Below are positions 5,808 to 23,317 of a DNA stretch of 49,696 nt, piece after piece. The notes under the pieces are model-generated. The model was not told the DNA's origin and did no database searches. It saw only the letters and a program-made list of their open reading frames with translations. How positions within the stretch are numbered: position 1 is the stretch's first letter; each line of letters begins with the position of its first letter. The stretch comes from Roseburia sp. (lineage in GTDB: Bacteria; Bacillota; Clostridia; Lachnospirales; Lachnospiraceae): NCBI GenBank assembly GCA_017549185.1, contig JAFYVJ010000066.1, positions 1-49,696 on the forward strand. The letters run 5' to 3'. A program made the position numbers and the translations under genes.

Positions 5808-8669
5808 ATGAAAAAATATTTACGAGACAGATATAAAAGAAAATGGGGTGTCTGTACAACGATAGTTCTATTATTAGTAGGCATGTTGATAGTGGGGATA
5901 CCACAGATAGTAAGTGCAGACGAACCAAAAACACAGTCTGAAAGGGTAATTCGTATTGGTTATTTGGGATATAAAGGTTTTATTACGCAGGATGGTGGAA
6001 GGAATTATTCCGGATATGGTATAGAGTTTTTAAGTGAGATAGCAGATTACACGGGTTGGAAATATGAATTTATATATGATGATTTTGAAAATCATTTAGA
6101 GAATTTGCGAACCGGACGAATTGATTTTATGATAGAGTTGCAAAAGACACCTGATAGAGAAGCAGAATTTTTATATTCGCAGAATATCGTAGGTGTCGAG
6201 TCTAGTGTTATGTATGTCCGAAGTGATGAAGAACGTTATTATTACAATGATTATGAAGCGTTTGATGGTATGAAAATCGCATGTGTATGGGGAAGCTTTC
6301 AGTCGCAGCAGCTTGAGGAGGTTGCAAAAGAAAAAGATTTTTCTTATGAAATGCATGTGTATGAGACACCAAACGGATGTTTTAGTGCATTAGAACGGGG
6401 ACTGGTAGATGCGGTTGCGATTGGAAGCAATGCTTTGAATGAAGGATATAAGATTGTCAGTCGTTTTGGATCAGCTGGTTTTTATGCCGTTACAGGAGCA
6501 TTTAATACAGAATTGATGGAAGAAATGAACGCTGCTATAGAACAGCTCTATTCGGTAAAACCTAATTATAGAGATTATTTGGCAGAAAAGTATTATGGTA
6601 AAGCGGGTGTTCAATCAGTGGTATTTACCCGAGATGAGGCGGAATATATCGCCACAGATGAGGAGATAACGATAGCATTTATTCCAAATAGAAAGCCGTA
6701 TTCATATGTAAATGAAAATGGGGAGATAGAAGGAATAACGGTAGATCTTGTGAAACAGATTCAGGAAAAAAGTGGTTTTCGATTTAAATATGTCATGATG
6801 GGAGCTGGAGAAACGGCAACTGAGTATTTAAAAAAACATCCGGAACATATAATTGCTGGTGTGTCAGCTCTAAATCCTCAATTTTTAAATAATAATTATC
6901 AGTTGTCTGAAGTGATATGTTCGGATAATGTGGCGATTGTAGGTCGACCAGGTATGGAATATAAGGTGGATTCACAAAGCGAGTATTATAGATTAGCCAT
7001 ACCGAAAAGCTTTATGGCATTGCAGTCATATATAAAAGAAAAATATCCGGAATTTGAAATTGTGCCTGTGGATTCTACAGAAGCATGCTTAAAAATGGTG
7101 TTGAACGAAGAAGTAGATTTTATGGCACAAAATATAAATGTGTTGTCTCCGTATTTACAGAAGCCGCTTTATGAGGACTTTACGGTCTTATCTAGTTTTT
7201 TTATGGAAGAGAAGATGGCACTTGTTGCACTTAATATTAATGAGCATAATGTATGGATGAATATTATTGATAAGTGTATTGCAACCATTACAGAACGTGA
7301 ACGGGCACAATGTATCGTAGATTATACGCTTAAGAATACTTATGAGCTTACATGGCTTGACATTCTCTATAAATCGCGTACAGAAGTGGCAATTATTAGT
7401 TTTTTGATCCTTTGGCTTTTTGTAATGATGATAACAAGTATGGTAGTCAGAAATCGACATTATGCATTGATAAAAAGTAAGAATATTGAACTGGCAGAAG
7501 CAGTGGCACAGGCAAATAGTGCCAATGAGGCAAAGAGTACATTCCTTGCACGCATGAGCCATGAGATTCGTACGCCGCTAAATGCGATTGTAGGAATGAA
7601 TGCTATCTGCAAGAATCATTTGGAGGAGCCTGATAAAGTAAAAGAGTACTTAAATAAAATGGAGAATGCTTCTAAAGTATTAAGTGGTGTTATTAATGAT
7701 ATTTTAGATATGTCAGCAATCGAGAGTAATAAAATTAAAATTGAATCAGCAAAATTGTCTGTCAAAGATGTTATTAAAACCGTAGAGGATATCTACTATG
7801 AACAATGTAAGGCAAAAGGTGTGAAATTAGACGTAATTATGGAAAATGTAAGAGATACGGAAGTTATGGGAGATGTACTTCGTTTGAAACAGGTATTTTT
7901 AAATCTTGTATCCAATGCTTACAAATTCACACCGGTTGGCGGTACGATTACGATCAAAGCAACAGAAGTATCAGAACGAGAGGATAAGGTTTTTTATAAT
8001 TTTAGTGTGTCGGACAGCGGTGAAGGAATGACAGCGGAGATGATGTCCAGATTATTTAAACCATTTGAACAGGAAAGTGCAAGTACAGCTAAGTCTCATG
8101 GTGGCAGTGGATTAGGTCTTTCTATTGTGAAAAATCTGGTGGAATTAATGTCCGGTTCTATTTCCTGTGAATCGAAAAAAGGAGAGGGGACGACATTCCT
8201 TGTATCTATTCCATTTGGAATTCCAGAAGAACAGAAAGTGATGAAAAAAGAGGAAAAACGGGAAGTAAGTCCAACGGAATATGATTTTGAGAATCGTAAA
8301 ATATTGTTGGCAGATGATACGGAGTTTAATGCAGACGTTCTAATTGATTTACTTGCTATGGTAAATATGCAGGTGGATTGGGCAGAGAATGGTCGTATTG
8401 CAGTAGAAATGTTTGAACGATCAGAAGTCGGACAGTATGAGGCGATTTTTATGGATATTCAGATGCCTGAAATGGATGGTTACGAAGCTGCAAAAACAAT
8501 TCGTGCGTCTGCACATCCACAAGCAAAGACGATTCCGATTTATGCGATGACAGCGAATACATTTACAGAGGATGTCAGTGAGTCATTTCATGCAGGTATG
8601 AACGGTCATTTGGAGAAGCCGATTGATACTGCATTGGTATATGAGATTTTACATAAGATTGTAAGGTGA
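5808..8669 (+). CDS. Hybrid histidine kinase with two SBP_bac_3 sensor domains
   Basis: A 953-residue membrane sensor. A signal-anchor helix (about 13-31) precedes two extracellular solute-binding-like domains in tandem (about 43-265, starting RVIRIGYLGYKGF, and 280-515, starting ITIAFIPNRKPYSY). A second membrane helix follows (about 527-549), then a short coiled coil and the HisKA domain with His585 in SHEIRTPLNAIVG. The HATPase domain has NLVSNAYKFT, DSGEGM and GGSGLGLSIV. A C-terminal receiver domain carries Asp883 in FMDIQMPEMDGYEA. No HPt domain or output regulator is adjacent, so the phosphorelay partner is elsewhere. A start 32 codons earlier is possible, but GAGGAGAAGG before the ATG at 5808 and the position of the signal helix favour this one. 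BvgS/EvgS-like architecture; the ligand is unknown. Confidence 0.93.
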   Translation: MKKYLRDRYKRKWGVCTTIVLLLVGMLIVGIPQIVSADEPKTQSERVIRIGYLGYKGFITQDGGRNYSGYGIEFLSEIADYTGWKYEFIYDDFENHLENLRTGRIDFMIELQKTPDREAEFLYSQNIVGVESSVMYVRSDEERYYYNDYEAFDGMKIACVWGSFQSQQLEEVAKEKDFSYEMHVYETPNGCFSALERGLVDAVAIGSNALNEGYKIVSRFGSAGFYAVTGAFNTELMEEMNAAIEQLYSVKPNYRDYLAEKYYGKAGVQSVVFTRDEAEYIATDEEITIAFIPNRKPYSYVNENGEIEGITVDLVKQIQEKSGFRFKYVMMGAGETATEYLKKHPEHIIAGVSALNPQFLNNNYQLSEVICSDNVAIVGRPGMEYKVDSQSEYYRLAIPKSFMALQSYIKEKYPEFEIVPVDSTEACLKMVLNEEVDFMAQNINVLSPYLQKPLYEDFTVLSSFFMEEKMALVALNINEHNVWMNIIDKCIATITERERAQCIVDYTLKNTYELTWLDILYKSRTEVAIISFLILWLFVMMITSMVVRNRHYALIKSKNIELAEAVAQANSANEAKSTFLARMSHEIRTPLNAIVGMNAICKNHLEEPDKVKEYLNKMENASKVLSGVINDILDMSAIESNKIKIESAKLSVKDVIKTVEDIYYEQCKAKGVKLDVIMENVRDTEVMGDVLRLKQVFLNLVSNAYKFTPVGGTITIKATEVSEREDKVFYNFSVSDSGEGMTAEMMSRLFKPFEQESASTAKSHGGSGLGLSIVKNLVELMSGSISCESKKGEGTTFLVSIPFGIPEEQKVMKKEEKREVSPTEYDFENRKILLADDTEFNADVLIDLLAMVNMQVDWAENGRIAVEMFERSEVGQYEAIFMDIQMPEMDGYEAAKTIRASAHPQAKTIPIYAMTANTFTEDVSESFHAGMNGHLEKPIDTALVYEILHKIVR

Positions 8670-20500: not shown

Positions 20501-21559
20501 ATGAAACAGGAGAAATTTGTAGCATATGTGGGTACATATACCCATGAAAACAGTGTAGGTATTCATATTTATGATGTCGATGTAGAGAAACCATACATGA
20601 CAGAGCGAAAAGTAGTTCCAATTAATAACCCATCAGATTTGACGGTTTCAAAAGACAAAAGATTTTTGTATTCGATTGCTGATGAAGGTGTGGAGGCATT
20701 CCGTATTCTGCCGGATGGTGATTTAGAGTCGATTAACCGTGCAGGAATCGGTGGTATGAGAGGGTGCTATGTGGAAGTAGATGATACCAACAGATATTTA
20801 TTTGTTGGTGGACACTATGATGGCAGAGTTAGTATGCTTCATATTAATGAAGATGGAAGTCTTGGTACTGTCGCAGATGGTATCTTCCATAAAGGTATGG
20901 GAGTAAGTATTGAACAGCGTAATCATATTCCACATGTGGATTGTGTAAAGTTGACTCCTGACCAGATGTTCCTTTGTGCAGTGGACAATGGTTTGGATCA
21001 TGTGAAAGTTTATCGTGTAGATTATGAAAAAGGAAAATTGAAATTGGTACATATCATTCGTGGACAGATGGAATCAGCTCCTAGAATGATGCGTTTCTCA
21101 AAAGACGGTAACTATGCTTATATTTTATATGAATTAGCGAATATGGTAGAAGTATACAAATATTCGGTAGAAAATGGAGAACCGATTTTTGAACTAATTC
21201 AGACCATTTCTACGAAGACATCTGAAGACGCGAAGTCTCTATGTGCTGCTTCCGGTATGGAAGTATCACTGGAAGGTAATTATCTGTATTGCAGTATTGC
21301 GGGTACAAATGCGGTTGTATGCTTTGCAATTGATAAGGCTACAGGTATGTTGACTACTTCGTTTAATACACGAGTAAATAGTGATTTTCCGAAAGTGTTG
21401 GCAGTTTTACCGGATGAAAAGCATTTTATGACTTTGAATAATAATTCAAATCAGATTATGTTTTATGAGGCACATCATGATAAAGGATATGCGTTGTGGA
21501 AGGGTAAACCTATTAAGGTAGATAAACCGAACTGTATTGATATTGTGGCATTGCCATGA
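20501..21559 (+). CDS. Seven-bladed beta-propeller lactonase family protein
   Basis: A 352-residue cytosolic protein of the 6-phosphogluconolactonase-like propeller family (PF10282, Pgl type). It opens with YVGTYTHENSVGIHIYDV and repeats blade motifs such as LTVSKDKRFLYSIAD, DDTNRYLFVGGH, LTPDQMFLCAVDNG and EVSLEGNYLYCSI. GGAGGGG lies 9 bases before the ATG. The family hydrolyses 6-phosphogluconolactone in the pentose phosphate pathway, but members with other or no known substrates are common, so the substrate is uncertain. It is converging on aroC, with only the large palindrome between them. Confidence 0.85.
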   Translation: MKQEKFVAYVGTYTHENSVGIHIYDVDVEKPYMTERKVVPINNPSDLTVSKDKRFLYSIADEGVEAFRILPDGDLESINRAGIGGMRGCYVEVDDTNRYLFVGGHYDGRVSMLHINEDGSLGTVADGIFHKGMGVSIEQRNHIPHVDCVKLTPDQMFLCAVDNGLDHVKVYRVDYEKGKLKLVHIIRGQMESAPRMMRFSKDGNYAYILYELANMVEVYKYSVENGEPIFELIQTISTKTSEDAKSLCAASGMEVSLEGNYLYCSIAGTNAVVCFAIDKATGMLTTSFNTRVNSDFPKVLAVLPDEKHFMTLNNNSNQIMFYEAHHDKGYALWKGKPIKVDKPNCIDIVALP

Positions 21560-21571
21560 ATGATTGGTTGA

Positions 21572-22207
21572 AATAAACTTTCGTTTAGCGAGGTCTTAGA
21601 GAACGCACCGACCTCAGGAATATCTCGTTCGAAAAACTATAGAAAGTGCAAATATTTTAAATTCAGTAAATTTAGTTGTGTTAGAGAAAAGTTTAGAAAT
21701 TCTTTTCGCAGAATGCCGGAATAACGTTTTGTGTCCGCTAACGCGTTGCAAAAAGTTTAGAAAATATCTGACATAGCACGAACAGGTGCCTGTTATAGCT
21801 TTCAAGATTCTCTAGCAGGTGGCTTTGGCAAAGTCGTTATGTACTTCGCGGCGTCAAAACTCAAAGGGGACTTAGTTCATAGGTATTGAATGATTCAATA
21901 TCTACGTTCTAAGTCCCCTTTTCAAACAGTTGACTCTGCGAAGTACGTTTTGTCAAAGCTCACCTGCAAGAGAATCTACGAAACCTACAAGGGCACTGTC
22001 CGTGTCTATGCAGATATTTTTTCAACTTTGTGCAACCTTGAGCGGACAGGAAATATCACGTTTCCGGCATCTGCGAAATTAGAATTTCAAACTTTGCAAA
22101 ACCACAACTAAATTTACTGTTTAAAATATTGCACTTATTAAAGATTATATACGAGATAATCCTGTGGTCGGTGCGTTCTCTATTATTACGAGAAACGAAA
22201 GTTTATT
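21572..22207. repeat. 636-bp imperfect palindrome (giant hairpin element)
   Basis: The whole spacer between the lactonase stop (21559) and the aroC stop (22217) is one long inverted repeat centred near 21892. Perfectly complementary blocks in order: 21572-21586 with 22193-22207 (15 bp), 21597-21613 with 22166-22182 (17 bp, TAGAGAACGCACCGACC), 21664-21680 with 22103-22119 (17 bp, CAGTAAATTTAGTTGTG), and 21863-21875 with 21909-21921 (13 bp). The tip is TATTGAAT-G-ATTCAATA (21884-21900). Between the blocks the arms stay alignable with scattered mismatches and small indels. Short reading frames inside it carry no recognisable protein. It could be a fold-back (MITE-like) element or a long rod-shaped RNA; no transposase is present. 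Confidence 0.85.
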
Positions 22208-22216
22208 ACGATGACT

Positions 22217-23317
22217 TTAAAAATAAAATTCTCGGATTGAGTCCATTTTTGCACTCATATTTACAAAGAGTGCATCTACGATTGTCAGTGCTGCCATGGC
22301 TTCTACGACAACGACTGCACGAGGTGCGATAATCGGGTCATGTCTGCCATGAATGTTAATGTTGATTTCTTCGTTTGCTTTATTAACTGTCTGCTGGGTG
22401 GCTGAGATAGAAGGAGTCGGTTTGATAGAAGCACGTAGAATAATGTCACTTCCATCACTCATTCCACCTAAAATACCACCGGCATGATTGGTGGCTTTTT
22501 CAATTTTACCATGTTCATCAATGCGAAATGCATCATTATTGACTTTTCCGGTTGCTTTGGCAGCCTAAAACCCATCTCCGATTTCAAATCCTTTTACAGC
22601 ACCAATAGACATAATTGCTTTGGCAAGATTCGCATCTAATTTTTCGAAAACAGGATCGCCGATACCTACAGGCATACCGGAAATGACACACTCTACCATT
22701 CCGCCAACGGAATCGCCATCTGCCATGCAGGCTTCTAAATAAGCAGATGCGTTAGCAGCAGCTTCTGCATCCGGCATGTAGAGAGCATTTTGGTTAATCT
22801 GCATAGCGTCAAAGAGACGTTCATCGCATACGATTGGTCCGATGGATTTGGTATAAGTAGTGAATGTAATGCCTAATTGATTTAAAATTTTCAGTGCTAC
22901 GGCTCCGGCAGCTACACGACCGATAGTTTCGCGACCAGAAGAACGTCCGCCACCGCGATAATCGCGGAATCCATATTTCATATCGAAGGTATAGTCAGCA
23001 TGTCCCGGACGATAGAAAGATGCGATTTCACTATAATCTTTGGAACGTTGGTTTTCATTATATATTACTAAAGAGATTGGCGTGCCAGTGGTCTTTCCTT
23101 CGAAAACACCAGATAAAATGTGTACAATGTCGCCCTCTTTGCGTGGTGTAGAAAACTGGGATTGCCCAGGCTTTCTACGGTCTAAAAATTTCTGAATATC
23201 TTCTTCACACAGATATAATCCTGCAGGGCAGCCGTCGATTACTACGCCTAATCCTGCACCGTGAGATTCACCCCAGGTTGTGATTTTAAAAATGGTTCCA
23301 AATGTAGAGCCTGCCAT
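22217..23317 (-). pseudogene. aroC: Chorismate synthase aroC interrupted by one amber codon
   Basis: Chorismate synthase converts EPSP to chorismate, the last step of the shikimate pathway. The first 250 codons are intact ([41 protein letters not shown]-like and [14 protein letters not shown] motifs). A TAG at 22565-22567 then interrupts the motif FEIGDGF-stop-AAKATG. The same frame continues without shift for 115 more codons through HAGGILGGMSDG and RHDPIIAPRAVVVVE to TAA at 22217. Full length would be 366 codons, normal for the family. The change could come from a GAG, CAG or AAG codon by one substitution. TAG is used as an ordinary stop by other genes here, so read-through is not expected. 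Real mutation or sequencing error cannot be told apart. Confidence 0.85.

Follow-up and report, generated by a model that had tools for sequence, protein, structure and literature searches.

The 636-bp palindrome lying between the lactonase and aroC genes of a Roseburia sp. contig (JAFYVJ010000066.1; the whole stretch analysed, 49,696 nucleotides, is called the window) belongs to a family of giant hairpin repeats that is real and spans several genera, and for which homology is firmly established. The reading preferred here, and held to be probable though well short of certain, is that this is a dispersed, non-coding repeat of some Lachnospiraceae, mostly 500–670 bp long, that folds into a hairpin rod, would spread as a hairpin into gene 3′ ends, would have its arms re-matched in tracts and would serve as a two-way 3′-end block. 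Under this reading an enzyme would carry the hairpin into gene 3′ ends, where insertion would be harmless. During replication the nascent strand would fold back and copy one arm from the other, whereby the arms would be re-matched in tracts and each site would drift to its own sequence with pairing kept; the rod at its site would then block in both directions, replacing the terminator that it had displaced.

The palindrome between the lactonase and aroC genes

An earlier note on this DNA had described a near-complete palindrome with a one-base tip that begins 12 bp after the lactonase stop and ends 9 bp before that of aroC, and each of these particulars was borne out. Positions 21572–22207 align end to end with their own reverse complement over 636 bp (76.9%, 411 bits), the best self-complement score of 100 Markov shuffles being 37.4 bits, and the arms at 21863–21891 and 21893–21921 are separated by a single base. 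From the lactonase stop (21559) to the left edge there are 12 bp, and from the right edge to the aroC stop (22217–22219) there are 9. Folding of the region, which the note had proposed as a check, gave −336.4 kcal/mol for the RNA of 21560–22220 (z −26.9, 20 shuffles) and a z of −32 for the DNA of 21572–22207. No Rfam match above the gathering score was obtained in the whole window, and a pattern scan found no terminator within the lactonase–aroC spacer. The features referred to below are as follows.

21572..22207, no strand: complete rod, a 636-bp imperfect palindrome and one copy of the family (self-alignment, fold)
21572..21891, + strand: left arm (arm A, first in the window copy)
21893..22207, + strand: right arm (arm B), the complement of arm A save for mismatches and bulges
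21819..21965, + strand: conserved tip, matched by covariance model R2 (41.5 bits, E 1.8e-10 per 1001 bases)
21827..21843, + strand: A side of the conserved unequal internal loop, GGCAAAGTCGTTATGTA (R2/tip alignment)
21944..21955, + strand: B side of the conserved unequal internal loop, TACGTTTTGTCA (R2/tip alignment)
21772..21784, + strand: arm A motif CATAGCACGAACA, retained with at most 1 mismatch in G028 and G021 copies
21997..22010, + strand: arm B motif TGTCCGTGTCTATG, retained in G028 and G021 copies and pairing with arm A via fixed bulges
21572..21586, + strand: left end AATAAACTTTCGTTT, common to most own-genome copies and inverted at 22193–22207
20501..21559, + strand: lactonase gene (7-bladed propeller family, PF10282), its 3′ end 12 bp from the rod
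22217..23317, − strand: aroC (chorismate synthase, PF01264), its 3′ end 9 bp from the rod

By eye, particular bulges recur at the same position between copies. Most other own-genome copies also show, by eye, some 25 bp of weakly conserved flank running on beyond the same edge, so that 21572 and 22207 need not be the original boundaries. The aroC gene carries one in-frame TAG at 22565–22567 (minus strand), with the frame and the Pfam chorismate synthase match continuing on both sides; it may be a real stop, a recoding or an assembly error.

Copies and relatives across genomes

The window's own genome (G000; 2.31 Mb in 78 contigs, 70% complete) contains the element in 19 places, the 18 beyond the window's being 78–92% identical. 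A contig end is reached by 16 of the 19 places, which therefore represent between 11 and 19 elements. The element is also the probable cause of the breaks in this assembly, and the family would explain why they fall where they do. In 14 of the 16 copies at contig ends, the element faces the 3′ end of a gene at most 100 bp away. Small palindromes of 46–156 bp in this genome have the outer part in common, with the tip at varying depths; such derivatives (46–450 bp overall) may reflect nested insertion into tips or central deletion, and the GTTT direct repeats in the ends would allow the latter by slippage. A second repeat in the same genome (L016, L020, L070, L071) has a non-palindromic body and the same end, AAACTTTCGTTT. 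Two of its loci, L016 and L020, contain a non-palindromic part and look like chimeras of the two repeats, L020 being a gapped palindrome of 829 bp. A 539-bp palindrome at L115 (12879–13417) is unlike that of the window.

A blastn search of 98 relatives and of 62 genomes of the genus found substantial homologues outside the own genome in G028 and G021 alone; G055 and G088 gave one hit each (22 and 26 bp), too short to count. Named records bearing the motif came from two ‘uncultured Roseburia’ assemblies. The G028 and G021 copies examined are full palindromes too (377–566 bp). Three of those from G028 are 93% alike in the core and have no visible similarity between their outer arms, and the arms within each of these copies match at 78–80%.

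Sampled stretches were also surveyed for any long palindrome, irrespective of blastn similarity. Four of 528–638 bp were found in 200 kb of G035, a complete R. hominis-type Roseburia genome of 3,592,125 bp that gave no blastn match to the window's palindrome. The survey further yielded palindromes of 566 and 377 bp in 379 kb of G028, one of 539 bp and the gapped one of 829 bp (L020) in 399 kb of G000, and one of 277 bp in 200 kb of G016. The samples of G082 and G079 held only palindromes of 101–157 bp, and the 100-kb samples of G053, G055, G084, G095 and G080 (three from other families) held none of 90 bp or more; the sample of G036 was 6 kb. The G035 family occupies at least 40 places by blastn and comprises at least 55 copies by structure model. 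All 30 of the copies fetched with their flanks are palindromes (513–669 bp, 69–79%) whose arms pair over the full length. Among its relatives in G054, G059 and G050, 6 of 7 loci are palindromic (241–606 bp), the exception being L213 (G048).

These separate families are joined by their tips. Tips from G035, G054, G059 and G050 can be aligned with one another and have in common conserved, unequal internal loops whose unpaired sequences are near-invariant across the four species, and the same unequal loop is present in the superfamily of the window; in all, about 130 bp of tip is homologous across species and genera. A first tip model covering all species (R1) held just 8 pairs and was set aside. 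Model R2 was built from 12 tips of the four species named above and includes no sequence from the window superfamily. It nevertheless matches the centre of the window palindrome at the score given in the feature list when filters are off (43.1 bits when run on the window locus as L001). Rods of G028 (five) and G021 (one) are likewise matched at their centres, and for G028 the filtered genome search recovered three of the five. Over 23 sources R2 found a match in 10 and none in the remaining 13 (L005, L006, L007, L009, L016, L020, L027, L074, L115, L136, L187, L188 and L222).

Searches with R2 across 397 genomes of the family gave matches in two, both from other genera, where 12 of 13 loci are palindromes (299–668 bp); across 392 genomes of the order the only match was again in G400. 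Within the genus, 9 of 62 genomes were matched, and 9 of the 10 loci examined are palindromes of 241–603 bp, three of the 10 having been in the model and some others being already known. Four genus genomes were first detected by R2, and a long palindrome stands at the locus in three of them (G047, G039 and G010), not in G020. All R2 genome counts are lower bounds, since the filtered genome search missed both G000 and G021. Similarity or a model match without a long palindrome was seen at L213, L267 and L288. The search of other Lachnospiraceae genomes that the earlier note had suggested thus returned homologues in other Roseburia species and in two other genera. Long palindromes of 277–539 bp (69–74%) that the tip model does not match were seen at L115 (G000), L222 2584–2904, L187 2039–2320 and L188 7957–8249 (G034), and L136 17500–17776 (G016), and are possibly other families of the same kind.

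Position behind genes

The placement of the rods was tallied for 64 copies from 13 genomes, a set that leaves aside contig-end copies, loci without a palindrome of at least 200 bp, and L037, L245, L248, L249, L251, L254 and L255. Simple ORF calling placed 34 copies between convergent genes, 21 between tandem genes and 2 between divergent genes, with one flank unread in the other 7, and 58 of the 64 (all but 6) lie within 60 bp of a stop codon. On a circular chromosome convergent junctions are as many as divergent ones, so that 34 against 2 amounts to a strong preference (p 2e-8). At five convergent loci (L034, L035, L169, L259 and L268) the stop codons of both genes fall inside the outermost bases of the palindrome, which could be chance arising from similar gene ends.

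The lactonase gene, present in 27 of 62 genomes, allows sites with and without a rod to be compared. In three species it is followed by a rod: G000 (L217), G034 (L222, 321 bp) and G035 (L223, 593 bp). The gene beyond that rod differs between G000 and G035, and the two families standing there have no blastn match to each other. The lactonase stop is followed within 130 nt by a hairpin in 16 of 21 readable non-carriers (in a few, a weak one) and in 0 of the 3 carriers; three further non-carriers, with too little sequence behind the gene, were excluded. The next gene starts 682 bp away in G035 and 112–257 bp away in seven relatives with, by eye, the same next gene. The longer spacer, together with a hairpin in non-carriers only, indicates that the rod is an addition standing in the terminator's place. 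From this we infer, as the weakest part of the reading, that the rod would act as a two-way 3′-end block in place of the displaced terminator. The idea that the outer layer of the G035-type rods consists of native R. hominis terminators was rejected, the CTGYCGC motif being present in 0 of 49 terminators called in 200 kb (by eye).

Arm pairing, spread and comparison with known elements

Between the 30 G035 copies, identity falls from 0.84–0.98 near the tip to 0.25–0.52 at the edge, the latter range holding for the four outermost alignment windows, with 0.43–0.58 in the next two and 0.70–0.98 further in. Within copies the arms pair at 0.54–0.83 (12 alignment windows with at least 27 copies), with no comparably steep trend. 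Within-copy pairing exceeded between-copy arm pairing in a way unmatched by any of 1000 permutations in 9 of these 12, and the remaining three gave p values of 0.007, 0.028 and 0.24, the last being columns 211–240, where no excess is seen in the G035 copies. Three alignment windows further out, which have 6–9 copies each and reach into the flanks, likewise showed no within-copy excess (p 0.17–0.84). In the 30-copy alignment 69 of 234 pairs are changed on both sides (shuffled 32.7 ± 3.5, slid 22–32) and there are 221 double-change cells (shuffled 63.1 ± 7.0). The four-species tips give both-side changes in 20 of 43 pairs (shuffled 13.6 ± 1.9) and 68 double-change cells against 23.9 ± 3.8, with further pair types not raised (33 against 36.8). 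The shuffles leave the relatedness of copies in, which the slid controls handle better. Covariation was counted on G035 copies and four-species tips, full copies of the window superfamily being few. That arm differences between copies are compensatory, as the earlier note had asked, is therefore firm for the R. hominis-type copies, in which the covariation is found within copies.

The way in which the arms are kept paired is probably correction by template switching, a process published as making and maintaining hairpins (PMC8794818) and described for quasipalindromes and RNA genes. Three observations point to it. At L163 conversion has affected 9 of the 9 arm-difference columns of the inner loop, so that arm B now complements arm A there, whereas the near relative L161 retains the loop; this fits a template-switch signature and the published description of imperfect-palindrome arms re-matched in one step (PMC8794818). 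Double changes are also clustered (81 neighbours against 53.1 ± 4.9), in a test partly confounded by the relatedness of copies. Lastly, the excess of G.U over A.C mismatches is slight and not significant: a set of 8 copies gave 62 G.U to 54 A.C, and among the G035 copies the 11 tandem ones, read on the sense strand, gave 77 to 64 (p 0.31), the remaining 19, read on the plus strand, 155 to 122 (p 0.054), and all 30, taken by arm orientation, 228 to 190 (p 0.07). The other converted tracts span 3–5 columns and are mostly common to one subfamily, so that they are not independent events. Double transversions make up 87 of the 221 double changes, and changes kept on one side number 169. Template switching as described (PMC8794818) is a mutation process, whereas the rods are a family of elements. 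Arm correction alone would erase the near-invariant tip loops of the four species, which argues for selection on at least the tip. If the arms are re-matched in this way, then strong covariation, which is usually regarded as proving selection on an RNA, would here be at least partly mutational, and the family, with dozens of replicate rods per genome, would offer a natural test of the long-standing question whether covariation arises by selection or by mutation.

The same data bear on two readings that do without a spreading hairpin. The rod could be a structural RNA, either part of a 3′-UTR or independent, whose fold is selected, whose arms covary for pairing and whose fixed bulges bind a protein or RNase III. 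The covariation in G035 copies and four-species tips, the near-invariant tip loops of the four species, the presence of the same unequal internal loop in the window superfamily and the very stable fold would all be accounted for, and this reading, although unlikely, is the most serious of the alternatives. A selected strand should tolerate G.U over A.C, however, and that excess is not significant; one-sided kept changes are fewer than double ones; and presence in the genus is patchy (R2 in 9 of 62 genomes). The earlier note had allowed that, with no further copies and no arm covariation, the palindrome would be a one-off inverted duplication. A single duplication decaying at the window locus has the imperfect arms in its favour and nothing further, and the 19 places in the genome, with homologues in other species and genera and covarying arms besides, leave it practically no probability. 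Of the note's two proposals, a fold-back element or a structural RNA, the former is by the same evidence well supported.

As to how such an element would move, no target-site duplication of 2–6, 8 or 9 bp was clearly above permuted pairings in 28 G035 copies, in a comparison where edges are fuzzy and old duplications wane, so that some could be missed. The end motif (at most 1 mismatch) occurs in 89 places in G035, most of which pair at about 510–550 bp, too close for a transposase gene, and a limited look for an autonomous version via this motif found none (12 stretches with odd ends, with the ORFs of one, L244, inspected by eye). Viral contigs (exact pattern) and plasmids and phages (blastn) gave no match. 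With neither a duplication nor an autonomous version, it is from copy number and shared sequence that we infer spread. It is improbable that the rods are ordinary MITEs whose inverted repeats happen to be full-length and whose movement depends on the transposase of an insertion sequence that escaped detection. This reading would agree with the dispersed intergenic copies with common ends, with the small derivatives of 46–450 bp and with the apparent chimeras L016 and L020, which involve a second repeat of the same ends. MITEs, as characterized in the portion of PMC10969869 available, resemble the rods in being non-coding, intergenic, present in many copies and size variants, and expected to form stem-loops when transcribed; since their direct repeats are said there to flank younger copies and to wane with age, the absence of such repeats from the rods is not decisive. 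Their inverted repeats are nonetheless given there as about 4–30 bp in a total typically below 500 bp, whereas the rod is nearly all inverted repeat; the ends of the rods are least conserved and the middle most, the reverse of what a transposase needs; and the arms covary. Far less probable still is an oversized REPIN mobilized by the Y1 (RAYT) transposase. REPINs, in the portion of PMC3116915 available, are likewise dispersed inverted-repeat hairpins that multiply in a genome, but their length is much smaller, with a distance of 71 bp between the starts of the 16-mers in one group, and they are thought to need the Y1 transposase, whereas PF01797 was found in only three of nine rod carriers searched (G028, G035 and G400) and is absent from the other six, three of which are 94–99% complete.

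Also among the closest known systems are SPRITEs, which by the partial text of PMC3049150 are also dispersed, enriched near gene 3′ ends and capable of a terminator-like hairpin, and for which a target-site duplication could not be established either. Their length is typically below 200 bp and their duplex 18 bp, whereas the rods mostly measure 500–670 bp (636 bp in the window), and a conserved tip with free arms is a feature of the rods that is not part of the SPRITE description in that text. No title or abstract describing the family was found among the best-ranked matches in the open-licence literature, and the R. hominis genome paper (PMC4645204) mentions, in the part available, only CRISPR repeats. 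The family thus appears to be undescribed, as the earlier note had thought possible, and would represent a new class of element at the gene ends of gut commensals.

In the complete G035 genome at least 55 rods of about 600 bp coexist with SbcD. Long palindromes are usually unstable in bacteria, with which this contrasts. Loss of SbcCD was considered as the reason for the long palindromes and rejected: among ten carriers from the genus (G000, G010, G021, G028, G035, G039, G047, G050, G054 and G059; the carriers G273 and G400 fell outside the search), seven have an SbcD match that passes the curated cut-off, so that the rods persist despite it. Over the 62 genomes searched, 58 had an sbcD match at E 1e-10 and 29 were over the cut-off; the matches are weak in G010 and G039, and none was found in G021 (68% complete).

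A further reading, which is put forward as a doubtful suggestion, would make the rod a hairpin replicator in which sequence is inherited through the tip alone. This tip would enter or displace a terminator hairpin that follows a stop codon; the arms would then be rebuilt on site by fold-back copying, partly from flanking DNA, so that the palindrome would grow outward and acquire arms that are private yet complementary. One case, suggestive only, fits such growth into the flank. At an orthologous locus behind an ftsH-like gene (named by eye), G028 carries a 565-bp rod and G000 a mini-hairpin, with the left flank common to both; the outer 22 bp of the G028 rod are identical to the flank beside the G000 mini-hairpin, and the inverted copy at the other edge of the rod matches at 23 of 26 bases. 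At L244 in G035, rod ends at 1426–1524 and 8553–8593 stand about 7 kb apart, with a 1013-aa ORF that by eye is beta-galactosidase-like and other ORFs in the interval; the separation may stem from the entry of a gene cluster through a palindrome.
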